Assembly: GCA_024345305.1 (NCBI GenBank)
Contig: BRON01000003.1
Location: 2,277,361 to 2,341,360 of the forward strand
Direction: 5' to 3'
DNA from: Mrakia gelida
Lineage: Eukaryota; Basidiomycota; Tremellomycetes; Cystofilobasidiales; Mrakiaceae
Length of the DNA: 64,000 bases
The position numbers were made by a program, and so were the translations under genes. Under the pieces are notes generated by a model. It was given only the letters and a program-made list of their open reading frames with translations, had not been told where the DNA came from and did no database searches. How positions within the stretch are numbered: position 1 is the stretch's first letter; every line of letters begins with the position of its first letter. Of the stretch, positions 29,085 through 60,784 are shown in pieces.

Positions 29085-29104
29085 CTGCTCTAACGGTATG
29101 CGCG

Positions 29105-29189
29105 CCGTTCCAACGCGTTGGAACGGTCGTTTCCGTCAAGTCGACTTGACGGATCCGTCAAGTCCGACCGTTCCAACAGGACTTGACGG
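29105..29189. repeat. Palindrome cluster 1 at left edge of subtelomeric block 1
   Basis: A perfect 22-bp palindrome built on half-site CCGTTCCAACG lies at 29105-29126. Two overlapping 22-bp palindromes of arm sequence GACTTGACGG follow at 29132-29153 and 29143-29164. A hairpin with an 11-bp stem comes last (29155-29165 with 29179-29189); its loop again contains CGTTCCAACA. The right arm is followed by another copy of the arm. Confidence 0.9.
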
Positions 29190-29470
29190 ACTTGACGGAC
29201 TTTGCGTCGCTTCGTTCTCCCTCCCCTCCCCACCGAATTGCGAGCGGGAAAAACGACCAGCTAGATCTACCTATGAAGTACAATGTATCAGATGCACAGC
29301 TGTATACGAGAAAAGCTGCATCGTCGACAGATATTCTCCCGAGAGGTACCTCAAAACGAAGGAGAGGGCGAGCTCGAGCTGACTTCCGCGAGTTCTTTTC
29401 GGAGGAGCTCCATCCTCTCTCTTTCAGCTTCTCTGTATACTCAAGGCCGAAACCGCGGATTGTAAAGGGC

Positions 29471-29640
29471 TGGAGTCGTTGGTACATAGCTCTAGTATGT
29501 CCCGTAAAGAGGGCTTAGCTCTAGAGTGAGAACGTGCTCTCGACTCGAGGTTAAAAGTTATGAGCTCGAGCTCACCTCTGAGCTCCTTCCCCTCCCTCCG
29601 ATGCAGGCCTGAGCGTCGTGGCGGGAGAATTTGCTCGCTC
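29471..29640 (+). repeat. Block leader segment, one of five copies
   Basis: A segment beginning GGAGTCGTTGGTACATAGC occurs at about 29472, 37478, 40185, 52731 and 60785. In blocks 1-3 it lies just upstream of the first conserved exon of the big gene. At 37478 and 60785 it lies downstream of the gene and leads into noncoding sequence. It probably holds promoter or 5' leader sequence. Confidence 0.7.
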
Positions 29641-29642
29641 GA

Positions 29643-32600
29643 ATGGGGAGCGTGCTCTCTATACCTAGTTTCCTGACTAGGCTTTTCTCAGATTCCGATT
29701 CACTGCGAGAACGCTGGCGCAGTGGCAGCAAACCTGTCGATGGAAGGACCTTCTCGTTCGTTCAAGCTCAGCATCAACCTCCTCCCCTCTCTCCTTCCTC
29801 CCTCGCTTACCTCCTACAACAGCAGCTGGACTCTTCCTGGACCTCCTGCCTCTTTGGTACTCTAGAATCGACCTGGGCGATGGGAGGGTGGTTTCATAAA
29901 TCGGTGGATCTACAAAGCTGTGGACCGAAGGGGACGAGCTCCGAGTCCATCCCGTGTCTTCGACGAGAAGTTGCGGAGCTGCTCTCTCCCCCAACCACAT
30001 CGACATCGACCTCTTCCCTTGACACCTTCCTTTCCATTTCCACTTCCCCTTACCAACAACTTGTCAGATCCTACGAGGGACCAGCCTCCTTCCCAAGGAC
30101 CCACTGGAGCAGTGCTCGAACGGCAGACTTGGTGAGCTCCCTCGCCTTATCGCTCCCTTATCGCTTCCCTTTCCTCAACCCCTCCTCCTCTCGCAAAGGA
30201 GGGAAGTCCTTTTTCTCTAGCTTCTATGTTGGGAGAGTATCCTTTGGGGTGAATAGAACCCACTGAGAAGGTGGATGCATGCTGGGAAGGTCTCTTGTTT
30301 GAAGGAAGGAGGGAGGAGCTCGCTCGCTCGCTCATGACTCGGTCTTCCGCTCCTCCTTCCCTTCCCTCCTTCATGAGCGAGCTCGATGCTGACCCCCTTT
30401 CCTCCCCTTCTCTCCCTACCAGGAACTTCTCCCCCACTCCTTCTCTACTCCTATCCGTCCAACGGACCCGATCCACTCTCACAACCCTCTCGAGCTTCCT
30501 TCGAAAGCGACCTCAGCCAAACCTCCTTCCCCTTTGGAACCCTCGCTGAACGAGCTCTCGAGAGACTTTCTCGTGGACTCAAGTGAGTCTTTCGCTTTCA
30601 GTTAGAGGTAGGGGAGGTGGGATGAGGTGTCACCTGCCTTTGCAGAAGGAAGGAGAAGGAAGGAGGAGTTGCGAGCTCGAGCTGACCATCGTTCTTCCCT
30701 CTACCTCGCTCGCTCTCCCTCCTTCCCCTTGCACTCTCAGGTTCTTTCTTCAGTACCGTAAGTTGCCCTCGCATACCTCAATCTTCTCATACCATCCACC
30801 CTCCGCTTGGTTCTGTTCTGACTTTCGATTGACCTTCTCTCGTTCGTGCTCGAGCAGATGAGCTTCCCATGCTCAAAAGCGATCTGCCATGCCCTCTCAC
30901 CCTTCTCCACCCTTGCTAAACTCACCGAGCATGTGAAGGATGTTCATCAAGCTGAAATTCGTCTTGCTGGAGGTCTCAAAGGTGCGCTTGCACACATCTT
31001 CTCCGTGTAGGTTCCGTTTAAGCCCAACACTCATCCCGTTCCTCCCTTCCTCTCGTTCTCCCTCCCCCATCCCTCTCAGTGCCGCGTGGAACCAACGGAT
31101 CGTTCTCCTGCCCTCGACCTCACTCGGAACCTCACTTTTCCCGTACCCCAAACGCGTTTCATAAGCACTGGAAGATCTGCACGGTGACTGAACCTCTGCA
31201 TCCGCTCTTCCCTTCTCCTCTCGTTCACTCTTCATCTCCTTCTCCCCAACCCGACACTACCCCTCCGCCAACACAGGATCAGCTGGAGGAGGAGGAGAAC
31301 GCTCACCTAGGGGATGGGGAAGGGTTTGGTTTTGGGATGGACGAGGGGGAGGGAGAGGGAGAGACCGAGCGAGGTGGTGGCGAGGGAGTTGGAGGGAGTG
31401 CGAGTGGGTCGAGCTCGAGTGGGACGAGGAAGGGGAAGGAACGCGAGGTTGTTGTTGAGAGTGAGGGTGTTGGTGGGGAGGATGGGAACCTTTCGGAAGA
31501 TGGAGGAGTCGGTGCTGCATGTGGGATGGATGGAGTCGAGGGCGAGGTCTCTTCGGACGATGGTGAGTCTCTCTAGGTCACTCTTGTTTGCTCTCTCGCT
31601 CGAGAGTATGGACTCGTGCTGATCCTCAAACCCTTCTTCCCTCCATCAGGCTCAACAGCATCGGTTCTTAGAGACGACAGGGCTGGTAACAACAGCCTCA
31701 GGGGACTCACCATCGGAGGATCTTTCGTTCGAGACGCGTTCTGGAAGCTACCTCATCTCGCCAGTTCGTTCTTCTTCTCCTCCCTCCTCCTTGCTCTCCC
31801 CCTTCCTTCCCGACCCTGACCTTTCTCCTCTTCCTCCTTTCAGCCACTCCCGCTCTCAATATCGCCTCTCTCGCTGTCAACACTCGCATCGGCCTCGTCA
31901 TCTCAACCCACGAGGACTCCCACGGAGGAGGTGTTCGTCCCTCTCGCATCGGACACCATCTTTCACTCCACACTCCGTCCCTCTCCTCCTCCCAGCGGAA
32001 GACTCTCACCCGAGATGCCACCCAGCTCCTCAACCTCTCTTCCTCTCTCGACACCTCCGACTACGCTTCCCTCGCCAACAACCAAGACGCGATCGGCCTC
32101 CTCCTCTCGACGAGTTCAGGCTCGACCTTCCCTATGGTCGAGGGAATCGCTGTGAGGTCAGGAATAGGGTGTGGGAGCTGTGGAGCTGTCTACAAGGATG
32201 GCGACTCCCTCCGAAGCCACCGTCACAAGAGGCACGGAGGAACAAACCTCGCTCCCACTCCCGCCTACTTCCAACGGCTCTTCCCCGACGCTCACCTCCC
32301 CGCCTTCGCCGTTCCTCCTCCCTCCCACGACTCCACCAACTTTGTTCCTCCTCCCCCTCCCAAGGTCCCACGATCGGATCCCCTCTCGGCATCAGCAGCC
32401 TTCCTTCTCAAGCAGCAGAACGAGATACTCTCCTCCCTTCCCATCCCCAGCGACAAGCTCGACAATTCCCTCTACCATCAACCAGTCTACCAGAACCCTC
32501 TCGGCTACGGCTCCTTCATCCGACCCTACCCTCTCGCCATCCTTCGCTCAGCCATCTCCCCCGCCCACAACTACCGATCCTCGGACAAGACTCGAATCGA

Positions 32601-35600
32601 AGACCGCGACCCTCTGCGAAACGTCTGGGTCCACGTTCAGGATCTCGCCTTAGGGGTTCGGAAGTACGGGACGAACCCGAGCGAGTTCGCTGTGGCGAGG
32701 AAGATCGGGATGGGGGATGGGTCGGTGCAGATCTCGGAGGACATGGTCGAGGAAGAGCGAGGAGGGAAGGGACCGACGAGGATCTTCAAGCCGCGGCTTG
32801 CGGATTCGACCCTCAAACGATACAGCAGGGACGCAAGCTCGCTCATCCTCTTTGCCCTCAGGGTCACGCCAACGGTCTACCGAAACCCCATCCCCATCCC
32901 TCAGGGCAAGCTCGCACCTCCTCCAATCATCTCCCCTCCTCCCTCCTCCTCCTCCTTCACCACCTCCATCGACCTTCCCTCCTTCCACACCACCGAGCGG
33001 ATGGTACTCGCAGCCAACACCCTCCGTCAAGTCCTCCAGAGGGACGTCCTCACCCAGCCGAACGGGGTCGTCGGAGGAGAAGGGAGAGGAGGAGTCGAGG
33101 AGTCAAAGGAGGTTCAGGACGCCCTCCTCCAGTTCCTCCTTGCGATCTACTCCCCTCGATACTCATCCACTCCTCCTCGGGGCCAGATGGTCCTAGATCA
33201 GTTCCTAATCTGCCTTTCCCTCGCTGCTGGAGGAGGCTTTCGGGAGATCGGATCGTTCGGACCTCAGCTCGCGTCCTGCGAGTTCTTCGTTCGACTCGTC
33301 GTCTACCGCCTAGTGCTGGACGAGATTGGATGGGGAGAGGTTAGGGAGTTGGATGAAGCTGAGGTTGGAGCAGTGCCAGTGTCGAGAGGGTAAGTCGGTT
33401 GTCTGGATCGCTTTGGGGTTCGAAACGCGTCGCTCACCTCTCTCTCTTTCTTCTTTCTCAGTCTCGACTCGCCGCTCTTCGAACTCGTCACAGCTCACCC
33501 CAACGGAGCTCAAGTCACACCCTTCGTCGTCCTTCGAGCTACTCGCTATCCCATCTCCCACGCCATCACCGCTGCTGGACCCGTCGTCTCCATCCAACCC
33601 CTCCACGACCCAGTCGAAGGCCACCTCCTCCCTCTCCTCTCCTACAACCGCTTCATCTCCCTCACCGCTATTGCCGACGCAGCCAAGGGAGCCATCGCAT
33701 CAGCTGCTTCCTTGATCAAGACCCTCACCTTCTCGGCAGACCTCTCAGCAGTTGGCCGAACGATGGAAGGAGTGACGGTCGGAGGAGTTGCGGGAGAGGT
33801 TGGAGGATCGATCTTCACGGATCCATCAAACTGCATCAAGCTCGGGATACCTCGGAACCAACAGGCTCTCCTCCTCTCCCTCTCTCTCTCCAACTCCAAG
33901 CTCTGGATCTCAAACCCTTCGGATCCTCTCAAACCCCAGCTCAACCTTCCTCACGCCCGAGCCTTCCTTCACTCCCTAGCCGCCGCGAAGCTCAACCTCC
34001 TCGTCGCCATCCACCTCTCCTCCCCTGGAGGTCGAGCTTCGGAACTCGTTACTCAGCAGCTCACCCGAACGGTCGACCACGGCTCCTCTCTCTTCATCAC
34101 CTCCAACCGACTCGCCGTTCGTACGGAGGTCAACAAGACAGGAACGAAGACCATCCATCGCTTCGTGTCGCCGACCCTCGTGCCTCTCGTCATCCAGCTC
34201 TTCGGAGTCGTACAACCCTTCGCTCTCTACCTTCTCTCCCTCCTCCACTCTCTCAGCCCTCTGGACAACAACCTCGACGTTCAGACCACCTTCAGGACGT
34301 TCCTTTGGACGAACGGTGTCGGGAAGCAGATCGTCGCCGCCGACCTCAGATCCCACCTCAAGCTCGCCTTCGTCTTGTCAGGCTCGTCGTCGGGAGTCGG
34401 GCTCCAAACGGTTCGACACGCCGAAGTCTTCATCAGTCGGATCATCCTTCCTCTCCTCGGATCCGACGCTAACGGACTCCTCGTCGCTCTGGAGACTCAG
34501 TCGAGCCAACGGGGCCACTCGCTCAAGACGGACGAGGCGGCTTACGGAAACACGGATTCGAGTGGTGGGATTCGGGACTTGGCTGCTTTTGGAGATGCAA
34601 CGAATGCGATGAGGGTTGTGAGCCTGTATCAACTCGCGTTGGGAGTGGATCCTGTGAGTCTTCGCCTCCAGGCTCGTTCTCGATCTTCACTCGACCCCTC
34701 GTTCTGACCAACCCTCCTCTTCCCCCTCCGCTACGCAGGTTCTCAAGATCGATCGCTTGCCCGACAGGCTGGATCTGTTTCTTGGGCGTAGCTCTCATCC
34801 GTCGGTGAGTCCTTCCTCCGTTCTCTCTTCTGGCGACGTCCCTCGCCTGACTGACGCGTCTCTCTTCCTCTCCTTCTCTTCAGCTCTCCTCCAAGCGTCC
34901 CTCCTCCTCTTCTCTCTCTTCCTCCCAACCTCTCTTCAAACGTCCCACACCAGCACCACCCTCCCCTCCTCCAGTCTCAGGGTACGACGACGAAGGATCC
35001 GAGCCGATGGAGCTAAGTCGAGACGACGCGTCAGGAGGAGGAGACAGCGCGAGAGACCCAGTCTTGGAGGAGGAGAGGAGTTCGATTCTTTCATCAAGTG
35101 CGGTGGAAGTATCCTCAAGAAGCCGGACTCCTCTCGATCTCCAAGCTCTCACGGACGGTGTCGACTTCGACGACGACATGGACGACTTCGACGGATCCAG
35201 TCCCCCTCCTCCTCCTCCTCCGCCTCCTCGCGTTCATCCCGAACCCTCCCCTCTCCTCGTTCCTCCTCCCTACTCCCAAGCGGACGTCATCACCAGCCTT
35301 CTTCGGGAGTGGACCGGCAACCCATCAGCGGAGCTTTACCAAAACCAGCTCGAAGCTGCTGCCAAGATCATCCGCGGAGGAACCGATTACCTTCTCAGCA
35401 GCCCCGTTGGGTCGGGCAAGACCTTCCTCTCCCTCCTTCGAGCTCTCCTCGACCGCAGTCACCCTACTGGTCGTCTCGTCGTCTTCATAACACCCTTCCG
35501 CTCCATCCTCGCTACGCTTCACGCTCGATGTCGGAACAGCAGTCTCGACGTCCACACCCACCCCTTCCCTCCCGAAACCCCTCTCGTCAGCCTCCGAGGT

Positions 35601-37380
35601 GTCCTCCTCATCTCGATCGAGCAGCTAGGCAACAAGCAGCTTCGAGAGGACCTCGCTTCCCTCGGCACCATAGGGAAGGTCCTCCAGTTCGTCGGGGATG
35701 AGGCTCACACCTGGGCGACTCAGTCGGATTGGAGGCCGTCGATGGGCTACGTCTCCCTCGCTCGACTCGCGCGAGCTCCCTTCCTCCTTCTCTCCGGCAG
35801 CTGGACTGAGGGAGCACGGAGACACGCCGGAACACTCCTTCACTCAACCCTCACCGAGCTCAACTTCCCTCTTCGTCGTCCTGGAGTCACGTTCCACGTT
35901 GTGAAGCTGGACTACAGCGACGACGTCTTCAAGACGATGATGGATACTTTCGGGAACGGTCACCTCTCTGCTCCTAGAGCTCCAGTCATCATCTTTGGAT
36001 TCACCAAGAAGGAGCTGGACGCGCTACGAGGAAGGCTGGTTGAGGAGGCGGAGAGGAAGGGTGTCGAGGTGAGGACGGAGGTCTACTACGCGGTGACGGG
36101 TGTGGAGGAGACAAGGAAGATGGATGGAACGAGCAGGGATTGGGAAGCCGGAAGGATCGACTATCTGTTCTGCACAACAGCGGGGATTCAAGCTCTGGAC
36201 TGTCCGGTGAGTCAAACACAACCCCCCTTGCGTCGCGTCGGGTCAGGACGAGAACAACAACCGAACTCTCTTCCTTCCTCTTCCAGCAATGCAACCTCGT
36301 CATCTTCCTTCCTCACCCAAAAGGATGGACAGTTTCCGAGCGCGTTCAGGGAGGAGGTCGAGGTCGAGACTGGGAGACCGTCGTCTGGGACTTCCAACGG
36401 AAGAAGTCGCCGCTTTTCTTTTTCGTCGACCACCCAAACGGGTTCGACCCTCGCTTCCGCTCTCCAAACAGCTGCATTGCCAAAGCACTGGAGGAGCAGC
36501 TCAACGATTTCTCGTCGGGAGACTGTGGGCTCTGTACGGAATGTCGTCGTCGTCGCGTTGCCCCTCCTCAATCTCCCTCCCTCCCCTCCCACCGAACCAC
36601 CAACCTCCTCCCCTCAGCCATCTCTCCTCCCCTCATCAGCTCTCTCTTCCCTACAGTTCCTCACTCCTCCGAGATCCCCGAAGCCTACCTCCGATCCCGT
36701 CAGCTCCATACTCAAGCAAACATCCTCCTCAACGAACTTGCCCACCTCCTCCGAACCCTCGACTCCCTCTGCTCGTCGTGCATCCTCCTTCACCCAACCA
36801 CTCAACTCTCTCCCAACGCTACCTCACTCCACAAGTACGGATGCCCCAGCAAGAAGAAAGAGTACGTTTTCGATTCTGTTTGCCTCTCCTTCTTGACCGC
36901 GACGCGTTCTGACGTCGCTTTCTTCTCTTCTCTCGCAGGTGCTCGTACTGTACTGGCTGCAACTGGAGGAGTCTCGAGACATGCGCAGTCCTTACCGCTC
37001 AACGCTCTACCTACTCCAACTGCTGTTTCGGATGCCTCTTCCCTATCTCGCTGCACGAGGAGGCGGCGGAGGGTGGGATGGGAGGAGGGTGTCCGTTCAG
37101 AGCTGCAAAGATGGTTGTTCCTCTTTGCATGCAGCTGTTCCGGGATCGGAGTTGGAGGAAGAGGGCTATCGAAGAGGGGAGGATTGGATCAGACTGGGGG
37201 TGGGTGTCTGACGGAGAAGGGATACTGCTGGGGACGAGGGAATATCACAAGTGGAAGATCACGAAGGAGAAGGACGTGGAGTTCTCGTTCTGGCTAGGTT
37301 TGCTCTCCCCTACACTTCCTTTCACCAACGCTGCTCTTCTCCTCCTCTGGTTCTACAAGACTGTCTCTCTCCCTACGTAG
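29643..37380 (+). CDS. Zinc-finger / tyrosine-recombinase-like / RecQ-like helicase fusion, copy 1
   Basis: The exons join into one protein of roughly 1900 residues. The first proposed exon starts MGSVLSIPSF and ends at about 30132. A 17-base exon leads in frame to MSFPCSKAICHAL (30858), a C2H2 finger. A second Cys/His cluster (CPRPHSEPHF) and an acidic linker follow, then finger CGSCGAVYKDGDSLRSHRHK near 32170, resembling the OrsD/DUF3505 type. The exon from about 33463 has tyrosine-recombinase boxes: GGRASEL (Arg 34033), NKTGTK, VRH (Arg 34414) and RGHSLKTDEAAY (Tyr 34543). A RecQ-like helicase follows with SPVGSGKT (Lys 35418), GDEAHTWATQSDWRP (35700) and VQGGGRGRD. The tail has CxxC pairs and ends at 37380. 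Telomere-linked RecQ helicases are known in other fungi. The start and small exons are uncertain. Confidence 0.72.
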
Positions 37381-37477
37381 TAACTCGTGTCCTCCTCTTT
37401 CTGTACTGGTTTGGAATCTTGTTGCGCTCCGCTTTCGTTTCTTCTCCGGTTCTCTTTGATGTCTCTTGTCTGAAGTT

Positions 37478-38560
37478 GGAGTCGTTGGTACATAGCTCTA
37501 GTATGTCCCGTAAAGGTGGCTTAGCTCTAGAGTGAAGATTTGCCGACGTCTCGAGGTTGAAAGGTATGAGCTCAAGCTCACCTCTGAGCTCCTCCTCCTT
37601 TCTCCTATGCGAGTCTGAGCCTCGTGGTAAGAAAATTTGCTCGCTCGAAGGAGGAACGTGTTCTCTATACCCGGCCTCCTGACTAATCTGTTTTCAGATT
37701 TCGAGTTACTGCTAGAATCGTTGCGCAGCGGCAGCGAACCTGTCGATGGAAGGGCCCTCTCGTTCGTTCAAGCTCAACCCCCATCTTCCCTTGCCCCTCG
37801 CTCTATACATGCGCTTCCCCCTTGCCCCTCCTTCTCCATTATGACTCCTTGGTAGTATGGGACCAACCCCAGCTGGTTTTTATCTCTCGTCAAGGCTGGA
37901 TGCAGGAGAAAATGAGCTCGATCAATGTGAGCTCCACCTCCACCTCCTCCCCTTCCTTCCCTCCATCTTCTCTCCTTCCGTTCTCCTCACCTCTTGCTCG
38001 GATCGCAATGGGACTTCGGGGGTATAGTAGGGCAGCTAGGGTGCCTAGGTGGAAGGTCTCAGATTTCAAGGAATGTATACGGTTGAGGCTCCTCGCTCAT
38101 GCAGTCTTGTTGAGCTTGACTCTCCTTCCTCCCATGCATCGCATGCTGCTGAGACTCTCGTACTCACTCTATCTTCTCATTCTCTCTTTCCTACCACTCT
38201 AGTATACTTCCTCCTCCATCGCAAACCGCTCCCATTGCACGCCTTGGCTCTCCTCTTCCTCCCTCGACCTCGCGATTTGATGCGCTGGCAGCTCGACCTT
38301 TCTCCTTCCTTTCCTTTGTCGAAGCTGTCGAGACGAGTTCTTGCTCCCTTTCCTCCCTTCTGGCGAATATATACGGCTTATATATAGTGGGCCCATAGGT
38401 GGAGAAGTAGAGGGATGCTGTAGGAGTGTTGGAAGGCCTCTCTCGGTCGTCGAGTCGGCTTGCGTTGAGCTCACCTCTCCTCCCCTTCCCTCCATCTCGA
38501 CCTTGCCTCCCTTCGACGTTCGTCAGTTCTTCCGTGGCACTGCTAGATGACCTACTTATG
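37478..38560. repeat. Noncoding segment downstream of helicase copy 1 (paralogue at 60785)
   Basis: The sequence after the gene begins with the block leader segment and diverges from it after about 37790. It then matches 60785-61870 throughout. Only short frames are present and they are not conserved as protein. It connects the gene to the 330-bp array. Confidence 0.65.
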
Positions 38561-39797: not shown

Positions 39798-39817
39798 TGT
39801 TCCTAACGGTATGCGAG

Positions 39818-43172: not shown

Positions 43173-43174
43173 TA

Positions 43175-43183
43175 ATTCAAGAT
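43175..43183 (+). other. Candidate self-priming primer-binding site
   Basis: ATTCAAGAT lies two bases after the 5' LTR and is the exact complement of ATCTTGAAT at 43058-43066 in the LTR. No tRNA-like TGG start is present. Tf1/sushi-type elements prime reverse transcription with their own mRNA 5' end in this way. Confidence 0.6.
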
Positions 43184-43278
43184 CAACAAACCGGTCGCCT
43201 GCTTATCACCAATCCTCCAACAACCCCACCCCCCAGCCAACTCGCCTATTCCAACTCTCTTCCCCCAACAACAACAAC

Positions 43279-44370
43279 ATGTCCTCCGACGCCTCCTCTC
43301 CTGCTTTCAGCTCTGAGCACGAAACGAACTCTCCAGGATGGTTTTCCGACGCCCTCAGATGGCAACAAGACCAACATGACGTCGCCTCCAACCGCTTCAG
43401 GACCAACCTCGATCAACAGCAACAGGCACTTGCTCAAGCTCAAGCTCAACAGGAGGAACTCGTCCAACTCGTCCACCAACTTCAAGCTCAACTCCCCTCT
43501 TCGGTCAATTCCTCCCTCCACAATTCCTCCGTCCCCTACGCTCAAGAACCCAAGGAGCCCAAGGTCGCTCCTCCTACTCCCTTCACCGGAAAAGTTTCCG
43601 AAGCGAGGGAATTCCTCATCAAGTGCGAACTCGTCTTCAAAGTCCAACCTCGATCCTACTCCTCCGACTCGGCCAAGATCACCTTCGTCGTTACCTACCT
43701 CAAGGACACCGCCTTTCACTGGATCCGACCGGCTCTCGATCTCAAGGATGACGAGACTCCTCCCAACTGGTCTCAGGATTGGATTCTCTTCAAGAAGAAG
43801 TTCCTCCAAGACTTCGGAGACGCGGACCTCATTGAAACCTCTCGACGCTCCCTCGCCAAACTCAAACAAACAGGACCCTGCACCACTTACGCCATCGACT
43901 TCCGACGCTTCGCTTCCTCCCTCGAGATGAGCGATCAGTCTCTTCGACATGCCTACTACGACGGACTCAAGGACGACGTCAAGGATCGAATCCTCAACCC
44001 TCTCTCCACCGACTTCACCGACTTGGAAACCCTCATCAACACTTCAATCCGATGGGACACCCTCCTTTACAACCGTCGAAAACAGCCTTTCCCCGTCACC
44101 AACTTCCTCCCTCGAAACTCCACCCTCTCCTCTGGACCAACTCCAATGGACGTCGACGCGACTACTTCTCGACCTCGAGGACCTCTCACCGACGCCGAAA
44201 AACTTCGCCGACGAACTCTCGGACTCTGCGGATACTGTGGTGGAACGGGTCACTTCGCAATCACCTGTCCTCTCGCGGCGAATCGACGACAACATCAGCT
44301 TTCCGCTTTGGAATACGGAACCGACGCACTTCCCTCGGCAACGGTCACCCCTCTTCCCGCTTTGGAATGA
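43279..44370 (+). CDS. gag: Gag polyprotein of the chromovirus
   Basis: The start at 43279 follows an AAC-rich leader and gives MSSDASSPAF, a 363-residue protein. The same frame is open upstream into the LTR, but this methionine is the natural start after the primer site. A Gln-rich helical segment is followed by the capsid core (PFTGKVSEAREFLIKCELVF, then FHWIRPAL and LYNRRKQPF). Near the end is a CCHC zinc knuckle, CGYCGGTGHFAITC, which packages the RNA. The frame ends in UGA at 44368-44370. The same frame remains open for pol after the stop. Confidence 0.92.
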   Translation: MSSDASSPAFSSEHETNSPGWFSDALRWQQDQHDVASNRFRTNLDQQQQALAQAQAQQEELVQLVHQLQAQLPSSVNSSLHNSSVPYAQEPKEPKVAPPTPFTGKVSEAREFLIKCELVFKVQPRSYSSDSAKITFVVTYLKDTAFHWIRPALDLKDDETPPNWSQDWILFKKKFLQDFGDADLIETSRRSLAKLKQTGPCTTYAIDFRRFASSLEMSDQSLRHAYYDGLKDDVKDRILNPLSTDFTDLETLINTSIRWDTLLYNRRKQPFPVTNFLPRNSTLSSGPTPMDVDATTSRPRGPLTDAEKLRRRTLGLCGYCGGTGHFAITCPLAANRRQHQLSALEYGTDALPSATVTPLPALE

Positions 44371-47300
44371 AGGCCACAGCCTTCCCCCTTCGCTCAGCCC
44401 AACAATCACCGGTCCTCGCTCTCGTCCTCGTCAACTATAAACCTACCAAACTCCTCTCTGGTCGCCAACTCCAAATCGACTTCCCATCCTCACCCCGGTC
44501 GTCTTACCACTCCCTCCCCTCTCAACATCTCCCTCAACTCCCTCTCCAACTCGCTCTCACCTTTCATCCATCCAAACCCCTTCGAAATCCTTGCGCTCGA
44601 GACGATCTTCTCAGAGGAGGATCACCTCGTTATCGAAGTCTCGCTGGGCTTCGGGTCTTTCGCCGTCAAGACCTTCGCGATGCTGGACTCCGGAGCTACC
44701 TCAAACTTCGTCGACTCTACCTTCGTCTCCGCCCATTCCCTCAAAACGGTCGCCAAACCCATTCCTCGGGAACTCGTCGTTGTTGATGGTCGTTCCATCT
44801 CCTCTGGCGCCGTCACCCACCACACCTCTCCACTCCCTTTCTCCGTCACCTCCTCATCGCCACTTCACTCCGAAACCCTCTCCTTCGACATCACTACCCT
44901 CGGATCCTACCCCATCATCCTCGGAATCCCCTGGCTCAAAAAACACGAACCAACAATCGGATGGAGCACCCACTCGCTTGACTTCCTCTCGGACCACTGC
45001 GACTATCACTGCCTCCCACCTATCGCGGATCGGAATCTTCGCTTCCCAACAGCTTCCACCCCCACTCCACTCTCTTCCCTTCCCTCATCATTCCACCCAT
45101 CGCCAAAACCTCCTTCCCTCAGCAAGCCTCCTCCCAGCAAACCAAGACCCTCGACGCGGCCCACCGTCGCATCTCCCTCGCCCCCAACCTCGCCTCTCCC
45201 TCAAATATCCATCATTTCCGCTGCCGCCTTCACTCAAGCCGCCAAGGCAGGAGCATTCAAGAACGTCTACTCTCTCTCAGCCAACTATTCCCCCGTTCCT
45301 GTCGACATCTCTCCTCCTCGCTCAGGAGAGGAACCTCCCTCGGATCCAACCTTCAACCTCGACAAACACCTCCCTCCCGAGTTCCTTCCCTATCGCTCAG
45401 TCTTCGAAAAATCCTCCGCCGACATCCTCCCTCCTCATCGATCCTACGACCTCAAGATCAACACCGAATCCGGCTCCACTCCTCCCTTCCAACACATCTA
45501 CGGACTCTCCGCCACGGAACTCGACGCTCTCAAGACCTTCATCGACGAAAACCTCACCAAAGGATTCATTCGACACTCAACCTCTCCTGCTGGAGCTCCC
45601 ATCCTTTTCGTCAAAAAGAAGGACGGATCTCTTCGCCTTTGCGTCGACTACCGAGGACTCAACAAGATCACCCTCAAGAATCGCTACCCTCTCCCCCTCA
45701 TCCCCGAATCCCTCGATCGACTCTCCAAGGCAAAATTCTTCACCAAACTCGATCTTCGTGGAGCATACAACCTCGTTCGGATCGCTCCTGGAGACGAGTG
45801 GAAAACCGCCTTCCGCTGTCGTTACGGCCACTTCGAATACACCGTCATGCCCTTCGGCCTCACCAACGCTCCCGCCGCCTTCCAGCACTTTATGAACGAC
45901 ACCCTTCGCCAACACCTCGACATCTTCTGCATCGTTTACCTCGACGACATCCTCATCTACTCCAACTCCCTCGCCGAACACACTCAACACGTCTCCGTCA
46001 TCCTCAAGGCTCTTCAAGAAGCACAACTCTGGGTCAAACCGGAGAAGTGTGAGTTCTACAAGGAGGAGGTTGACTTCCTCGGTTACGTCGTCGGTCGAAA
46101 TGGAGTTCGAATGGACAAGAACAAGGTCTCCGCTATCCTCGAATGGTCCCCTCCCTCCTCGGTCAAGGATATTCAGGTCTTCCTTGGATTCGCCAACTTC
46201 TATCGCCGCTTCATCCATCACTTCTCGGACATCGCCGCTCCCCTCACCTCCCTCCTTCGAAAAGACGTCCCCTTCGACTTTGGACGCGACGCTCTCTCCG
46301 CCTTTAACAAACTCAAAACCGCCTTCACCACCGCTCCCGTCCTCACCGTCTTCGATCCCTCACTCCCACTCCTCCTCGAAACCGACGCGTCCGACTTCGC
46401 TATCGCCGGAATCCTCTCCCAACGCTCTCCCACCAACGAATTCAACCACCCCATCGCTTTCTACTCTCGAAAACTCAACCCCGCCGAACTCAACTACGAA
46501 ATCCACGACAAGGAGATGCTCGCCATCGTTGAGTGCCTCAAGGAATGGAGACACTACTGTGAAGGACACCCGTCAACCCTCACCATTCACTCCGACCACG
46601 AGGCCCTTCAATACTTCAATTCGTCCAAGGTCCTCACGCGTCGACAAGCTCGCTGGTGCGAACTCCTCGGAAACTTCTCCTTCGTCATTCACTACAAACA
46701 GGGAACTAAGATGGAACTTCCGGATGCCCTCTCGAGACGATCGGGTCTTTCAGAGGGGAGTAGAGCTTCTCAACAAGCCCCTCAACGCGTCCTCAAGCCT
46801 GGTCAACTCGTCGCTCCTCCCCATCCTCCCTCGGAACCCTTCGTCAACCTTACCCCGGCTATCAACACTCCTCCACATCTATCTATTGCTCAAGGCTCTC
46901 GGCCAATCCGAACATCCACTCGCCTTTCACTCTCGAAACCTCAACAACCTCAACCTCCTCCCTCGATCCTCGCTCCCTCCCTCGACCCTGCACCTCAACC
47001 TCCTCCCTCGATCCTCGCTCCCTCCCTCGTCCCTGCATCTCAACCTCCTCCCTCAATCCTCGCTCCCTCCCTCGGCCCTCAACCTCCTCCCTCGCCTGCA
47101 CCTCAACCTCCTCCCTCAATCCTCGCTCCCTCCCTCGACCCTCAACCTGCCGATCCGGATCCCGACCTTGTCGGACGCATTCGTCGCGCTACTTCCCTCG
47201 ACCCTTCGCTCGACGAAATCGGACAGCTCCTCCGGAACCCGACGCTCCCTCTAGAATACGACAACTTCATCCTCCTCCGAGACTTCTCACTCCACCCAAC

Positions 47301-48678
47301 CCTCGACCTCATCCTCTTCAAGGAACTCATCCGAGTACCCAACGATCACCAACTTCGCCTCGACATCGTTCGCTCCTGCCACAACACCCTCCTTGCTGGT
47401 CACCTCGGACGAACCAAGACGCACGACCTCCTTCGACGATCCTTCATCTTCCCTCTGGACTCGGATTTCGTCGGAACCTACGTCGCGGGTTGTGATACCT
47501 GCGCTCGAAACAAACCCTCGCGACAACTCCCCCTCGGCCTCCTCCAACCTATCCCTCCTCCACTTGCTCCCTGGCGCCAAATTTCGATGGACGGAATCGT
47601 CAAGCTCCCTCTCTCCAACGGATTCGACTGCATTCAGGTCTTCGTCGATCGCTTCTCCAAGATGGTCGTCCTCGTCCCTTATAAGGAAGATGGATTCAAC
47701 GCGTCGGATCTCGCCAAAATGTACCTTAACCACGTCGTCGCTCATCACGGTCTTCAAACAGACATCCTCTCGGATCGCGGAACTACCTTCACCTCCTCCT
47801 TCTTCACCTCCTTCATCCAACTCCTCGGCGTTCGTCCTCACTTTACTACGGCGTTCCACCCTCAAGGAAACGGCCAAACGGAAAAGACGAATCAAGCAAC
47901 GGAAACTTACCTTCGGATGTTTTGCGACTACAACCAATCGAACTGGTCCGGACTCCTCCCAACATGCGCCTTCGCTCTCAACAACTCTCGCTCGGCCACC
48001 ACCCTCGAATCTCCCTTCTTCGCGGATCATGGTTACCATCCTTTGGCTCCCTCCGACTTCCTCCTCACCGCAACCTCTCACAACCCCGCCGCCAACACCG
48101 AAATCCTCGCTCTCGCCAAAGTCCACTCCTCTATCCACCACTCAATCATCCACGCGCAAGACCTCCAAAAACAGTACTACGATCGGAAACATCGGGCTCC
48201 AATTCGACGCGACAAGGATGGAAAGGAGGTCGACCTCTTCAACGTCGGGGATCTCGTTTGGCTCAACTCCAGAAACATCTCCACCGCTCGGCCCTCGTTC
48301 AAGCTCGACGCACGAAATCTCGGTCCCTTCCCCATTGTCAAGAAACTGTCCCCAATCACCTTCGTCCTGGACCTTCCCCCTACCCTCCAAATTCATCCCG
48401 TCTTCCACGTCTCGCTCCTCCTCCCTTACTCTCCCGGCCTCCACGATCAGCATCAGGATCCTCCTCCCATCATTGAATTCGAATCCCAGGAACACTTCAT
48501 CCCGGAACGGATCCTCGCTCACGAACATCGTCCTGACGGAACCTACTACCTCGTTCACTGGGAAGGATATCAAGATTTCGACGACACTTGGGAACCGGCC
48601 AACGGACTTGCTCGACTTCGAGTTCTCAACTCTTATCTTCGCTCTCACAAGGATGCTCGCCCTAGGAAAGGTTCTTAG
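44371..48678 (+). CDS. pol: Pol polyprotein: protease, reverse transcriptase, RNase H, integrase, chromodomain
   Basis: The frame is open from the base after the gag UGA and is in phase with gag; the first methionine is at 44680. Protease has LDSGATSNF at 44683. Reverse transcriptase has CVDYRGLNKITLKNRYPLP and YLDD near 45938. RNase H has ETDASDFAIAG and HDKEMLAIVE. A Pro-rich tandem repeat fills 46945-47150. Integrase has the HHCC finger (CHNTLLAGHLGR to CDTCARNK), the D,D-E triad and a GPF motif. A chromodomain near 48490-48620 reads YYLVHWEGYQDFDDTWEP. No frameshift or stop interrupts it. Expression needs readthrough of the gag stop or internal initiation. Confidence 0.93.
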   Translation, partial: RPQPSPFAQPNNHRSSLSSSSTINLPNSSLVANSKSTSHPHPGRLTTPSPLNISLNSLSNSLSPFIHPNPFEILALETIFSEEDHLVIEVSLGFGSFAVKTFAMLDSGATSNFVDSTFVSAHSLKTVAKPIPRELVVVDGRSISSGAVTHHTSPLPFSVTSSSPLHSETLSFDITTLGSYPIILGIPWLKKHEPTIGWSTHSLDFLSDHCDYHCLPPIADRNLRFPTASTPTPLSSLPSSFHPSPKPPSLSKPPPSKPRPSTRPTVASPSPPTSPLPQISIISAAAFTQAAKAGAFKNVYSLSANYSPVPVDISPPRSGEEPPSDPTFNLDKHLPPEFLPYRSVFEKSSADILPPHRSYDLKINTESGSTPPFQHIYGLSATELDALKTFIDENLTKGFIRHSTSPAGAPILFVKKKDGSLRLCVDYRGLNKITLKNRYPLPLIPESLDRLSKAKFFTKLDLRGAYNLVRIAPGDEWKTAFRCRYGHFEYTVMPFGLTNAPAAFQHFMNDTLRQHLDIFCIVYLDDILIYSNSLAEHTQHVSVILKALQEAQLWVKPEKCEFYKEEVDFLGYVVGRNGVRMDKNKVSAILEWSPPSSVKDIQVFLGFANFYRRFIHHFSDIAAPLTSLLRKDVPFDFGRDALSAFNKLKTAFTTAPVLTVFDPSLPLLLETDASDFAIAGILSQRSPTNEFNHPIAFYSRKLNPAELNYEIHDKEMLAIVECLKEWRHYCEGHPSTLTIHSDHEALQYFNSSKVLTRRQARWCELLGNFSFVIHYKQGTKMELPDALSRRSGLSEGSRASQQAPQRVLKPGQLVAPPHPPSEPFVNLTPAINTPPHLSIAQGSRPIRTSTRLSLSKPQQPQPPPSILAPSLDPAPQPPPSILAPSLVPASQPPPSILAPSLGPQPPPSPAPQPPPSILAPSLDPQPADPDPDLVGRIRRATSLDPSLDEIGQLLRNPTLPLEYDNFILLRDFSLHPTLDLILFKELIRVPNDHQLRLDIVRSCHNTLLAGHLGRTKTHDLLRRSFIFPLDSDFVGTYVAGCDTCARNKPSRQLPLGLLQPIPPPLAPWRQISMDGIVKLPLSNGFDCIQVFVDRFSKMVVLVPYKEDGFNASDLAKMYLNHVVAHHGLQTDILSDRGTTFTSSFFTSFIQLLGVRPHFTTAFHPQGNGQTEKTNQATETYLRMFCDYNQSNWSGLLPTCAFALNNSRSATTLESPFFADHGYHPLAPSDFLLTATSHNPAANTEILALAKVHSSIHHSIIHAQDLQKQYYDRKHRAPIRRDKDGKEVDLFNVGDLVWLNSRNISTARPSFKLDARNLGPFPIVKKLSPITFVLDLPPTLQIHPVFHVSLLLPYSPGLHDQHQDPPPIIEFESQEHFIPERILAHEHRPDGTYYLVHWEGYQDFDDTWEPANGLARLRVLNSYLRSHKDARPRKGS
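46945..47150 (+). repeat. Proline-rich tandem repeat inside pol
   Basis: Four to five units of about 45 bp encode variations of QPPPSILAPSLDPA between RNase H and integrase. The repeat keeps frame. This linker is usually not repetitive in the family. Confidence 0.85.
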
Positions 48679-48720
48679 ACGCTCTCACAAGGATGCTCGC
48701 CCTAGGAAAGGTTCTTAGAC
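48641..48720 (+). repeat. Perfect 40-bp tandem duplication across the pol stop codon
   Basis: GCTCTCACAAGGATGCTCGC begins a 40-bp unit at 48641 that repeats exactly at 48681. The pol stop TAG (48676-48678) lies in the first unit, so protein length is not affected. Confidence 0.95.
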
Positions 48721-48743
48721 GCTCGAGAGACCTTCGCGTCTTA

Positions 48744-48755
48744 GATGGGGGATTA
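48744..48755 (+). other. Polypurine tract
   Basis: GATGGGGGATTA lies directly before the 3' LTR and would prime plus-strand DNA synthesis. Confidence 0.8.
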
Positions 48756-49114
48756 TGTCAGGGAATCAGGTTTCAGCTCCTTCTTGTTTCACTCTCCCTT
48801 ACTCTTTCCCTTTCTTCCCCCTACTTCCCTTTCACCGCTACTAGTCCTTTGTTCTCAGCTACGCGTTCTGCCTTTGTCCCTTTGTTCATAACTCTTCCCC
48901 TGTTATCGTTTCAGCCTTCAAAGTCTTTTGTTCTTTCTTCCCTTTGATCGCTTCGCCTCCCTTAAATATGTTCGCCTCGCTTTTCACTTTCTAACCTCTA
49001 TCTTGAATCACCTTTGGATCATACCTCGTCCTCGTTCCTCGATAAGCACCTGACTTCTCTTCGTCGCGTCGCTCTCGTTCCCTCGCCATCCCCGCTCCTC
49101 GCTCGATCCTCACA
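48756..49114 (+). repeat. 3' LTR of the chromovirus
   Basis: 359 bp that appears identical to the 5' LTR. It is followed by the target duplication TGCTC at 49115-49119 and by the continuation of helicase copy 2. Confidence 0.95.
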
Positions 49115-50560
49115 TGCTCCTCTCGAGACGGTCCACCTCGACCTTCCCTATGGTCGAGGGCATCGCCGTGAGGATGGGAGTAGGGTGTGGGAGCTGTGGT
49201 GTGGTCTGCAAGGATGGCGACTCCCTCCGAAGCCACCGTCACAAGAAGCACGGAGGAACGAATCTCTCCTCCGCTTCCGTTCACTCCCAACGACTCTTCC
49301 CCGACGCTCACCTCCCCGCCTTCGCCGTTCCTCCTCCGTCTCACAACTCCATCAACCTCGTTCCTCCTCCCCCTCCCAAGGTCCCACGATCGGATCCCTC
49401 CTCAGCATCAGCAGCCTTCCTTCTCGAGCAGCAGAACGAGATACTCTCCTCCCTTCCCACCCCCAGCGACAAGCTCGACAATTCCCTCTACCACCAACCA
49501 GTCTACCAGAACCCTCTCGGCTACGGCTCCTTCATCCAACCCTACCCTCTCGCCGTCCTCCGCTCAGCCATCTCCCCCGCCCACAACTACCGGTCCTCGG
49601 ACAAGACTCGAATCGAGGACCGCGACCCTCTGCGAAACGTCTGGGTCCACGTTCAGGATCTCGCCTTAGGGGTTCGGAAGTACGGGACGAATCCGAGCGA
49701 GTTTGCTGTGGCGAGGAAGATCGGGATGGGGGACGGGTCGGTGCAGATCTCGGAGGACATGGTCGACGAAGAGCGAGGAGGGAAGGGACCGACAAGGATC
49801 TTCAAGCCGCGGCTCGCGGATTCGACCCTCAAACGATACAGCAGGGATTCAAGCTCGCTCATCCTCTTTGCCCTCAGGGTCACGCCAACGGTCTACCGAA
49901 ACCCCATCCCCATCCCTCAGGGCGAGCTCGCACCTCCTCCAATCATCTCCCCTCCTCCCTCCTCCTGCTCCTTCACCACCTCCATCGACCTTCCCTCCTT
50001 CCACACCACCGAGCGGATGGTACTCGCAGCCAACACCCTCCGTCAAGTCCTCCAGAGGGACGTCCTCACCCAGCCGAACGGGGTCGTCGGAGGAGAAGGG
50101 AGAGGAGGAGTCGAGGAGTCAAAGGAGGTTCAGGACGCCCTCCTCCAGTTCCTCCTTGCGATCTACTCCCCTCGATACTCATCCACTCCTCCTCGGGGCC
50201 AGATGGTCCTAGATCAGTTCCTAATCTGCCTTTCCCTTGCTGCTGGAGGAGGCTTTCGGGAGATCGGATCGTTCGGACCTCAGCTCGCGTCCTGCGAGTT
50301 CTTCGTTCGACTTGTCGTCTACCGCCTAGTGCTGGACGAGATTGGATGGGGAGAGGTTAGGGAGTTGGATGAAGCTGAGGCTGGAGCAGTGCTAGTGTCG
50401 AGAGGGTAAGTCGGTTGTCTTGATCGCTTTGGGGTTCGAAACGCGTCGCTCACCTCTCTCTTTCTTCTTTCTCAGTCTCGACTCGCCGCTCTTCGAACTC
50501 GTCACAGCTCACCCCAACGGAGCTCAAGTCACACCCTTTGTCGTCCTTCGAGCTACTCGC
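49115..50560 (+). pseudogene. Recombinase-helicase fusion, copy 2, continuation and truncated end
   Basis: Coding sequence resumes after the 3' LTR with SRRSTSTFPMVEGIAVRMG and the C2H2 finger CGSCGVVCKDGDSLRSHRHK. It runs about 430 residues, nearly identical to copies 1 and 3, then an intron at 50407. The next exon begins LDSPLFELVTAHP but is cut after about 25 codons at 50560 by the LTR of another retroelement. The recombinase-like and helicase domains are therefore absent from copy 2. Confidence 0.9.
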
Positions 50561-51391
50561 TGTGGGGGTTTGGAGAGGAAGTGAGGAGTTCTTCTCGGTT
50601 CGTTCGTTCTTTTGTTTTGCTTTCTTCTCGACGCGTCTCTTCCCCTTTTCCCCTTTCTCGGTTAGACCCCGCTTCTATAGGTTGTGGGCCTCGCCCTTCT
50701 GTTTAAATTTAGTTCTCTGCTTCCCTTCACCGACTCTTCTCGCTCTGTAGATTGCTTTGCCCGAAACCTTCTCCTCGCGACGCGTCTCACTCTTCACGTT
50801 CCTCTTTTCTTCTCGGCCCTCCCTTCCGTCTCGACTCTCTTGCATAGTACATACTTCTTCTCGGTTCTCGCCTTCTCTGCCTCTTCCGTTTTATAGCTTA
50901 TACCCCTTTTTGGCTTTGCTGTGACCGCTGATGGTCTCGCGTCGTGTCTCACCACCCTCCCTCCCTTTCGCTAGTTACTCCCTCGAGCTTTGTCCTCCTT
51001 CTCGGTGCTTCGGACTGCGGATCATATCTAGTATAAAGAGTGGGCTAGTTTTGACCTTCTTGCTATCCATCAACTTTCACCCCAGAATTGGTCAACTTCT
51101 CAGCTTCCCTTCTCGACTCCCTTTCTCATCTTCCCTTCTCCAGAACCAGTCTCGCCGTCAAGTCGCCCAGTAGTAGTTCTCATTCTCCCTCGCGTAGTTC
51201 TCAAGTAGCTAGTAGTAGTTCTCGTTTTCCCTTCTCCACCGACCTCCCTTCCTTCTCCCAGCCCACCCCAAAGCCTCCAAGAGCTGAAACCTCAACGAGC
51301 ACTCGCCAGCGTCGTTCCTCCCACGAACCTCGATAGAGCTACCCACCACAACCCCACCTAGAGACCTTTACTTTACCGTAGAACGCCCACA
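50561..51391 (+). repeat. LTR of the truncated retroelement
   Basis: The terminal inverted repeat TGTGGG / CCCACA and the primer-like TGGTGG just after it define the limits. The left flank is helicase copy 2 coding sequence. The right copy and any target duplication are missing. Confidence 0.7.
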
Positions 51392-52352
51392 ACTGGTGGA
51401 GGCTGTAAGGACCGAATTCCGACCCAAACCACTTAGCTTAAGCATAGATATCCTCGCCCGTAGCTACCAAAACCCCCACCCCTTCTCGTCTTCTCCCAAA
51501 CGCGTACTCCCCCCCTTTCATCCTTCGAGCAACCTTCCACGCGTCATACTTCGAGGAACATCCGCTCTTACAAAGCCGTAACCCCAAGAAGAGTCCCGTA
51601 GAACTAGCAACATAGATCCAGGTCTCAGAGGAACTTTGCTAGAACTCGACCTCATTCCCTTTCATTATTCCGCGTCGCCCTTCGTCTCCCCACTCCCCTT
51701 CGTTAGAACCCTCTCCCCTTCCCACGAACCCTTCCCCGCCCGAACCATCGACCATATCCAATCCCCCAAACCCTAAAATCCAGGACCAACGCTCAACCGA
51801 ACCCTATCCCCTTCGTACGTCGTCAGCTTCCGGACCCAACAAACCTCGCCTCCCTCGTCTCTCGTCCCTCTACAACCCTTCCCCCTACGCTCGACCCTCC
51901 TCGGACTCTACTCCCAAACCCGAACCCCTTCCCCACTCTCGAACCTCTCCATCTCCCAACAACAACAACAACAACAACACCAACTCGGAACCCATCGTCG
52001 GAACCGAAACCATCGTCGAAACCGAACCCATCATCGAAACCATGCCCTCTTCCACTCCATCATCTGGAACAACCACCACCGGCGACGTCAAGACCGAAGC
52101 CAGGGTCCAAGCCGTCGTTACCTACACCAAGATCCCCTTCAAAGGAGATAAAGGAGCTCCTCCGACGTTCGCTGGAGAAGGAGACGATTGCGACGAATGG
52201 GTCGAAGCGCTGGACGACCTCTTCGAACAACTCAACATCACGTCGGACTGGGAGAAGGTTCGAGCCGCCTACAAGTACGCCGAAGGAGAAGCTCAAGGAC
52301 TCATCAAACTCCAGAAGTCGTCGAAGAAGGGAACGGCCAACTGGGACGTCTA
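50561..52352 (+). mobile_element. 5'-terminal fragment of a second LTR retrotransposon
   Basis: Sequence unrelated to the helicase begins TGTGGGGG at 50561. A matching inverted end CCCACA at 51386-51391 marks an 831-bp LTR. After a two-base spacer, TGGTGGAGGC (51394) is a plausible tRNA primer site. A leader rich in CCC and AAC follows, then the start of gag. Everything after about 52352 is lost, because block 3 begins there. No second LTR is present, so the element is dead. Confidence 0.8.
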
Positions 52353-52353
52353 A
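52042..52353 (+). pseudogene. gag: Truncated retrotransposon Gag N-terminus
   Basis: An open frame starts MPSSTPSSGTTTTGD at 52042, and upstream (51960-51980) is an AAC trinucleotide run. The protein has PFKGDKGAPPTFAGEGDDCD followed by WVEALDDLFEQLNI, the usual beginning of a Ty3/gypsy-type Gag core. It ends KGTANWDV at a stop formed at the junction with block 3, so only about 103 residues remain. Family assignment beyond LTR-retrotransposon Gag is uncertain. Confidence 0.75.
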
Positions 52354-52364
52354 TCCTATGCGCG

Positions 52365-52458
52365 CCGTTCCAACGCGTTGGAACGGGCCCCTGCGTACCC
52401 TCGAGGGTACGCATGCGTATCCCTCGAGCGTTCCAACAGGCTTTCCGAGGGATACGCA
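52365..52458. repeat. Palindrome cluster 3 at left edge of block 3
   Basis: The fixed 22-bp palindrome (half-site CCGTTCCAACG) is at 52365-52386. A different 22-bp palindrome with half-site TGCGTACCCTC lies at 52392-52413. A hairpin follows with a 13-bp stem TGCGTATCCCTCG (52414-52426) paired with 52446-52458, and its loop holds CGTTCCAACA. The arm sequence is unrelated to clusters 1 and 2, but the architecture is the same. Confidence 0.9.
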
Positions 52459-60687: not shown

Positions 60688-60784
60688 TAACTCGTGTCCT
60701 CCTCTTTCTGTACTGGTTTTGAATCTTGTTGCGCTCCGCTTTCGTTTCTTCTCCGGTTCTCTTTGATGTCTCTTGTCTGAAGTT

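Follow-up and report, generated by a model that had tools for sequence, protein, structure and literature searches.

The window analysed here, 64,000 nucleotides of Mrakia gelida (assembly GCA_024345305.1, contig BRON01000003.1, positions 2,277,361 to 2,341,360 of the forward strand), is the right end of the contig we call C3 and ends in TTAGGG repeats; the genome comprises 34.9 Mb in 25 contigs, and introns and the telomere repeat give the DNA a eukaryotic, fungus-like look. Each of the three palindrome clusters in the window forms the left end of a copy of the same subtelomeric element, and we propose, with a probability of roughly 0.7, that this is a one-ended mobile element that has the telomere as its other end and carries two independently shuffled modules of self-recognition, binding, catalysis and replication being the parts that we infer. 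The proposal is carried by the architecture of the left end, by an association of two classes of sites with two protein cassettes, by predictions that held in copies not yet read, by sharp left junctions at many different flanks, and by truncation that falls on one side of the element.

The left end and its two classes of sites

We read 78 left ends, 76 from a genome scan and two degenerate ones, and made all comparisons of copies, sites and cassettes within this one genome. Of the 50 contig ends, 34 have left ends no more than 40 kb away. Read inwards, they consist of the tip CTAACGG, TATGC, three variable bases, a 22-bp palindrome (P1) best viewed as a 9-bp stem with a 4-nt centre, five bases, a second palindrome (P2) that again has a 9-bp stem and a 4-nt centre, and a hairpin (P3) whose two arms flank a third core. 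This order of first palindrome, second palindrome and hairpin had been described by an earlier, sequence-only reading of the window and is present at all three clusters. The core GTTCCAAC occurs nine times in the window, always within the clusters and three times in each, as that reading had it (1.95 expected; 0 of 100 shuffles reach 9). The reading had also started each block at the palindromes; these do lie at its left end, and the feature itself begins 15 bp upstream of the first of them, at a sharp junction (CTAAC..TATGC). The three bases before TATGC (CGG, CCG, TCC or GGG) and the three after it (GCC, GCG, GTG, CGT, GAC or GAG) vary even where P1 is the same.

For palindrome statistics we used 72 of the 78 left ends, six rows being dropped as degenerate, and took as the right arm of P3 the best match 20-50 bases on; the set holds 25 left-end haplotypes. 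The inner pair of P1 is TG..CA in 41 ends, AA..TT in 29 and TA in two, its 4-nt centres include CGCG, CTAG, CCTC, GAGG, CCTG and GAAG, and the third core tracks the inner pair in 72/72 ends (CCAAC with AA or TA; CCAGC or CCTGG with TG), so the palindrome and core once described as fixed both come in alleles. We call P1 and the third core class X, and the arms of P2 and P3 class Y; the two are interleaved as X, Y, Y, X, Y. Seven hairpin-arm sequences were found (TCCGTCAAG, TCCGTGGAG, TCCGGGTAG, TCCGTATCC, TGCGTATCC, TGCGTACCC and TGCGGACCC), and, as the sequence-only reading had expected of a genome search, many arm sequences do lie beside a core, one that is less variable than they are.

The sequence-only reading had taken the arms of clusters 1 and 2 to pair perfectly and had offered selection on pairing, or templated repair across a hairpin, as the reason. 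Under such an explanation, selection on a hairpin of DNA or RNA, or else templated repair across it, would keep the arms self-complementary, and their sequence would otherwise be free. It accounts well for P3, whose arms match in 25/25 haplotypes across seven arm sequences, for P1, which is perfect in 22/25 haplotypes and broken at a stem pair in only 3/72 ends, and for centres that occur in both orientations. It does not account for P2, where a stem pair is broken in 25/72 ends and 8/25 haplotypes, cluster 2 included (there P2 reads TCCGTGGAG-TCGA-CTACCCGGA and two of nine stem pairs fail, the third hairpin pairing perfectly), nor for the recurrence of the class Y arm word outside its own stem, in P2, in the hairpin and once more in cluster 1. 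The arms moreover predict protein sequence encoded 1.8 kb away, following the zinc-finger pair described below. We therefore regard pairing as a very improbable main cause. Templated copying across a hairpin may be the way in which arms stay alike, since the 4-nt centres occur in both orientations (P1 CCTC/GAGG, P2 CCAG/CTGG), which resembles the flip and flop of terminal hairpins.

Two interior loci, C6:992882 and C7:136121, have in common a degenerate left-end-like start followed by other sequence, and possibly represent another repeat family that acquired a left end. The idea that the left end is the remnant of an inverted telomere tract found little in the genome, where CCCTAACCCTATGC has one exact match, in this window at 27588-27607; CCCTAACCCTAACCCTATGC at that place is telobox-like and resembles the tip plus TATGC. 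P1 might also be read in terms of a telomere resolvase.

A predicted protein with two variable cassettes

Joined together, eight exon pieces of copy 1 give an open frame of 1754 residues, the 3' end lying beyond the traced part. The order of the protein is two zinc-finger-like motifs (ZF1 and ZF2), an acidic linker, an OrsD-like region with a further zinc finger, a recombinase-like domain and a superfamily 2 (SF2) helicase. The helicase has Pfam matches (DEAD, 27.8 bits against a cut-off of 26; ResIII, 24.1 against 22.5), and the OrsD-like region and its zinc finger have weak ones below cut-off. Tyrosine recombinases carry the catalytic motif R-K-(H)xxR-(H/W)-Y with a usual spacing. In exon E, and in the numbering of that exon, residues R191, K225, Q315xxR318 (QxxRH), H352 (GH) and Y361 are invariant in 8/8 aligned copies, and the signature from K225 to Y361 is also kept, in the parts covered, in a relic of 59-73% identity; we call the domain tyrosine-recombinase-like by this motif only. 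Among the genome matches listed for exon E, 33/40 cover at least 328 of 397 residues, nearly all near contig ends. Elsewhere, none of 7988 candidate proteins scored as a homologue at E 0.01 or better.

Among copies, the recombinase and helicase parts are mostly 96-100% alike (92% in the poorest window), and two blocks drop to 61% identity. The first, at element positions of about 1600-2200, holds the finger pair, whose classes differ by up to 39%; the second, at 2600-3050, is the OrsD-like region, mostly 62-69% identical between its two classes, and we call it cassette D2. Synonymous divergence (dS) is 0.85 in the finger cassettes (16 distinct cassettes, 120 pairs), whereas the recombinase-like exon has 0.048 (15 pairs among 6 copies); the ratios of nonsynonymous to synonymous divergence (dN/dS) are 0.24 and 0.21. 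Positive selection on the fingers was looked for and not seen. A dN/dS of 0.24 with so deep a dS argues for maintained old alleles rather than fast change, and by this comparison the finger cassettes are old alleles in a young backbone.

Sites follow cassettes, each class its own

In the first 26 copies, ZF1 with lysine (AKLT, SKVT) usually goes with T-C-CG arms and ZF1 with glutamine (SQLN) with T-G-CG, a change that falls at helix position 3 in the usual C2H2 numbering. ZF2 usually pairs SALHEHW with CAAG, DAFHKHW with GGAG, NAFHKHW with GTAG, CSKPFALHKHW with ATCC and SAIHKHY with ACCC. The short D2 (105-nt exon C) goes with AA left ends and the long one (114 nt) with TG.

We measured these associations by mutual information in 25 copies, one duplicate of the 26 being dropped and hybrid left ends being classed by their hairpin arms (GGAG/GTAG as GTAG, ACCC/ATCC as ATCC); the copies are related, and hence none of the p values is exact. 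Class X is tied to D2 (p=0.0003), the inner bases of class Y to ZF2 (p=0.00005) and to ZF1 (p=0.02), and its outer part to ZF1 (p=0.001). No link appeared in these copies between X and ZF1 (p=1.0) or ZF2 (p=0.63), between D2 and the inner (p=0.61) or outer (p=0.67) part of Y, or between X and inner Y (p=0.65). The order along the DNA is X/Y, then fingers, then D2, so that linkage would predict a tie of X to the fingers; the tie of X to D2 is the opposite.

Segment identities in 24 copies made simple linkage of left end and fingers unlikely as well. Where Y is the same and X differs, a group of only 5-8 pairs, ZF1 and ZF2 identities are 0.89 and 0.83, against 0.78-0.79 and 0.72 where Y differs; where X is the same and Y differs, D2 identity is 0.91, against 0.74-0.76 where X differs. 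Between the left end and the fingers, DNA at 140-380 and 1050-1760 stays at 0.87-0.92 in every group other than near-copies, and most of the DNA between the two follows neither X nor Y.

For 13 copies not yet read, some of them closely related to copies already read, predictions fixed in advance held for D2 in 13/13 and for ZF2 in 12/13 (permutation of the 13 observed types, p=2e-5 for 12 or more matches); ZF1, covered in six of the 13, fits in 6/6. Over all 39 copies, one known duplicate included, X and D2 match in 36/39 (Fisher 5.8e-8) and inner Y and ZF2 in 33/39 (21/26 first copies and 12/13 held-out ones). Such covariation strongly suggests direct binding of the cassettes to the sites, and the core behaves like the protein-binding half-site that it had been proposed to be. 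The proposal that the recombinase domain is what binds the sites did not survive, and the exon was rejected as arm reader: it is identical, with a bit score equal to the query's own, in copies with CAAG, ACCC, GGAG and GTAG arms.

The same matching would be expected if the left end were an operator through which the protein regulates its own gene and nothing moved, and the start codon does follow the sites at a distance of about 1.7 kb. The sites also lie within 15-110 bp of a sharp junction that recurs before many different flanks, and the left end is retained in short forms without the gene region, both of which speak against an operator; one-ended capping, moreover, would be left unexplained. 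We hold an operator without movement to be improbable, although regulation of this kind and a one-ended element are not mutually exclusive.

Attachment to chromosome ends and one-sided truncation

The tip reads TAAC or TAAT in 76/78 ends, and in 69 distinct flanks the base before it (-1) is C in 64 and the next (-2) a pyrimidine in 61. Extended microhomology was not found in the flanks. The left end faces the nearest contig end in 76/78 cases. Of the 78 flanks, 33 match copy 3 of the element itself: 29 match the body of that copy, with a single one in the opposite orientation, and four match its TTAGGG repeat. Uninterrupted versions were found for 42 targets; the C is native in 38 and not in the four TTAGGG flanks.

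Ordinary subtelomeric recombination, such as break-induced replication or a spread like that of yeast Y' elements, would set the boundary by homology and let the match of site and cassette hitchhike. It fits blocks at 34/50 contig ends, segmental duplicates (one junction is common to four left ends), the long and short forms and the left-end swaps. It fits poorly with a tip at the same place before 69 distinct flanks and the C at -1, with the 29 flanks that are cut copies of the element body, and with an association that skips much intervening DNA and joins X to the more distant cassette. We give recombination of this kind only a slim chance, well below that of the one-ended element.

For 23 of the 42 targets, the sequence that follows the site has kept its natural left neighbour in 133/133 copies, and detached right halves of interrupted targets were absent from the sequence examined, much of which lay around left ends. 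A less biased check used a 4-kb gene probe genome-wide (40 of 48 candidates scored): 40/41 matches start at the start of the probe, and the one that does not is the latter half of a copy with an internal deletion. Seventeen of the 41 end early, four at contig ends, eight exactly at the left tip of another element and five otherwise. Gene copies inside contigs therefore number 13 truncated on the right against none on the left (sign test 2.4e-4, copies treated as independent). One-sided truncation disfavours nested insertion of a two-ended element, as both halves would then remain. A right end of the element was not found; no search was aimed at direct repeats there.

Several attachments lie close together. 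Different elements are joined to a resident copy at the same or a neighbouring base (positions 4005 and 10812 in copy 3 numbering; 6362/6363), and six of the 78 ends are attached a few dozen bases from another tip (C1:3231395, C17:6273, C2:3188172, C11:1551667, C6:992882 and C7:136121), two of the six at CCGTTCC^AACG inside P1. Close attachments seem more numerous than an even spread would give. The left end at C23:131286, on the minus strand (L028), is an interior short form that ends in telomere-adjacent G-rich DNA, with retroelement sequence and then about 128 kb more of contig beyond it.

Observations that weigh against a one-ended element

A number of observations count against a one-ended element with two recognition modules. 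Two left ends (C23:131286 and C6:992882) face away from the nearest contig end, and two further ones lie 136 and 197 kb inside contigs. Four junctions, with two distinct flank sequences, join a TTAGGG flank that lacks its own C, and 5/13 right-truncated copies do not stop at an element tip, two of these five being one duplicated junction at a retroelement fragment. Beyond the inexactness that relatedness brings to every p value, the association weakens when identical haplotypes are collapsed (n=15), to p=0.04 for X-D2 and for inner Y-ZF2 and to p=0.07 for outer Y-ZF1. DNA at 400-1050 is slightly more alike in pairs with the same Y and different X (0.91, 0.96 vs 0.83-0.86, 0.92-0.93).

Among the first copies, 5/26 mismatch at inner Y: C3_2306457 (copy 1 of the window), C11_22675 and C10_1570669 at X as well, C16_1235902 and C4_11539 at Y only. 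The held-out miss, C9_1677108, has ACCC arms with an ATCC finger. The five mismatching copies look like left-end swaps. As far as position 1400, copy 1 shares 99.5-100% identity with a CAAG copy; from there to about 2000 it shares 98-99% with GTAG copies, and because of this switch it looks like a swap near position 1400.

The protein adds points of its own. ZF1 and ZF2 have no Pfam match, the motifs having been read by eye. Exon E has glutamine where the box-II histidine is usual; scans of the seven copy 1 pieces and of the catalytic part gave no Pfam match for the recombinase-like domain, and the PDB gave no relevant sequence match (two unrelated weak matches, E 0.43 and 0.55, in a single-sequence search, none in a profile search); and two AlphaFold models of the domain reach a confidence (pLDDT) of 35 and 36.

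A proposed mechanism

Taking these observations together, we propose the following steps for the spread of the element:

(i) The palindromes, which form its left end, would be two interleaved arrays of inverted half-sites for its own protein.

(ii) Class X sites would be read by the OrsD-like/zinc-finger cassette D2, and class Y sites by the finger pair, with ZF1 reading the outer part (T-C-CG or T-G-CG) and ZF2 the inner four bases.

(iii) X and Y alleles, together with their matching cassettes, would be shuffled independently, and because of this shuffling the arms would change in every copy at once.

(iv) The recombinase-like domain may join the left tip (C|TAAC) to a chromosomal end in YYC. 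The DNA from tip to telomere would become the new chromosome end, and the old distal part would be lost.

(v) The element may either be moved or be copied, in the latter case by a fork that the helicase drives to the end of the chromosome and off it. We propose the copying mode because copies multiply, and a fork that ran off the end would need no right end.

Catalysis by the recombinase-like domain and the replicative mode are the parts that we infer. It is as if every copy had to read the label it carries before it could be joined to a chromosome end. Private labels could be favoured by escape from binding by defective copies, or by the exclusion of rivals at an occupied end.

More tentatively, and somewhat short of even odds, this may be a kind of element in its own right: a one-ended DNA element with the telomere as its other end, whose fused zinc-finger/recombinase/helicase protein caps chromosome ends with a copy of the DNA from the tip outwards, and whose lineages are separated by a two-part self-recognition code of ancient, maintained and shuffled site and protein alleles, much like a combinatorial incompatibility system. 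Several fungi have subtelomeric helicase genes, whose role is unsettled; here such a gene is part of an element that has a defined front end, and its cassettes predict the sequence of that end. If this is general, the telomere-linked helicase genes of fungi would gain a function. It would also suggest that a DNA element can occupy and replace chromosome ends, beyond what retroelements or telomerase do, and it puts on offer a natural code of fingers and sites with several alleles.

Features of the window

Coordinates are collected in the table. The gene is flanked by two 300-bp direct repeats, and the DNA that separates these is missing from short forms of the element.

Features of the three element copies (positions in the window)
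Feature	Position	Strand	Remarks
Copy 1	29090..39802	+	10.7 kb, long form; left end AA/CAAG, mismatched with its own cassettes (GTAG finger, TG-type D2)
Copy 1 left tip CTAACGG-TATGC	29090..29101	+	sharp flank junction, after C
Copy 1 P1, class X palindrome	29105..29126	+	9-bp stem, 4-nt centre CGCG
Copy 1 P2, class Y palindrome	29132..29153	+	arm TCCGTCAAG, centre TCGA
Copy 1 P3 hairpin	29154..29190	+	class Y arms around class X core CCGTTCCAACA at 29168-29178
Copy 1 additional class Y arm copy	29189-29199	+	
Copy 1 direct repeat 1	29471..29770	+	flanks gene; 83% identical to repeat 2
Copy 1 direct repeat 2	37477..37776	+	identity with repeat 1 of other copies reaches 95%
Copy 1 exons A and B, hypervariable cassette D1	30858..31562	+	A 30858-30981, B 31080-31562; ZF1/ZF2 zinc-finger-like motifs, read by eye
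Copy 1 hypervariable cassette D2	31650..32139	+	exon C 31650-31763 and start of exon D (31844-33389); OrsD-like, below Pfam cut-off
Copy 1 exon E	33462..34653	+	tyrosine-recombinase-like by motif only
Copy 1 exon G	34884..36206	+	SF2 helicase (DEAD 27.8 bits, cut-off 26), going on in exon H from 36287
Copy 2	39803..50561	+	left end AA/GTAG with one GGAG arm; cassettes match; ends abruptly at 50561
Copy 2 P1	39818-39839	+	
Copy 2 P2	39845-39866	+	2/9 stem pairs broken
Copy 2 P3	39867-39912	+	core 39881-39891
Copy 3	52350..64000	+	left end AA/TGCG with ACCC and ATCC arms; cassettes match; reaches terminal TTAGGG
Copy 3 P1	52365-52386	+	
Copy 3 P2	52392-52413	+	
Copy 3 P3	52414-52458	+	core 52428-52438

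Copy 2 holds a nested, full-length long terminal repeat (LTR) retroelement at 42814-49115, with a 1332-aa open reading frame at 44680-48678 that is pol-like by reading; its 360-bp LTRs are 100% identical, by which we take it to be a recent insertion. The stretch 50562-52349 looks, by reading, like the start of a second LTR retroelement that ends exactly at the tip of copy 3, and this junction of retroelement fragment and tip recurs at C10:6893. A subtelomeric tandem repeat of ~330 bp occupies the distal parts of copies 1 and 3 (38590-39802 and 61900-63450). At another contig end, the first 150 bp of C1 (C1:1-150, L067) match, at 100% identity, E. coli plasmid DNA with the annotations ccdB/letB and resolvase, and by that match are vector or contaminant.

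Comparison with known systems

In the open-licence PMC literature (titles and abstract starts; most subscription work lies outside it), we found no account of one-ended spread or of a site-matched telomere-linked helicase (TLH) element. The nearest relatives by content are the TLH genes and tlh-containing regions of fungi and the Y' elements of budding yeast. Like these, the element carries a subtelomeric multicopy helicase gene with truncated copies, has long and short forms, and is joined in some copies at telomere repeats; its helicase gene is present in many copies near telomeres, and copy 3 runs into TTAGGG. Unlike these, it has a sharp single left end at many targets, a recombinase-like domain and a matching of sites and cassettes. 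According to one account, subtelomeric RecQ helicases have no domain besides the helicase core, and a role in telomere maintenance is treated as a suggestion (PMC7473861). Full and truncated tlh regions occur at Fusarium chromosome ends, and FoTeRs co-occur with TLHs, according to another (PMC12857005).

Like Cryptons and Starships, the element would be a DNA element that has a tyrosine recombinase, in this case recognized by motif only, and no long terminal inverted repeats. Starships have two ends and a DUF3435 captain, for which there was no Pfam match in the seven pieces or the catalytic part scanned. Unlike either group, the element has N-terminal cassettes and a helicase, no recombinase-family Pfam match, and no right end that we found. 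One study gives Cryptons two ends with short direct repeats, of 4-6 bp, and CryptonS ends that mostly share TATGG (PMC3212892), to be compared with the TATGC that starts at the eighth base from the tip here. The seven gene pieces of copy 1 also gave no Pfam match to the HUH Rep or Pif1-type helicase. It is these two that characterize Helitrons, which move by an HUH rolling circle.

The telomeric retrotransposons HeT-A/TART, MoTeR and FoTeR are known for terminal addition, and the element would resemble them in this, in having one complete end and in truncation on the other side. It differs in that its complete end lies upstream of the gene, on the 5' side, and in that no reverse transcriptase Pfam match was found in the seven copy 1 gene pieces scanned; the reverse transcriptase in the window belongs, by reading, to the nested LTR element.

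In the iteron-Rep pairs of plasmids and the HsdS target-recognition domains of type I restriction systems, half-sites vary together with interchangeable recognition domains. The element is like these in its multicopy or paired half-sites that vary with interchangeable domains and in its old cassettes set in a young backbone, and unlike them in being a eukaryotic chromosome-end element, with two independent cassettes for two interleaved classes of sites.

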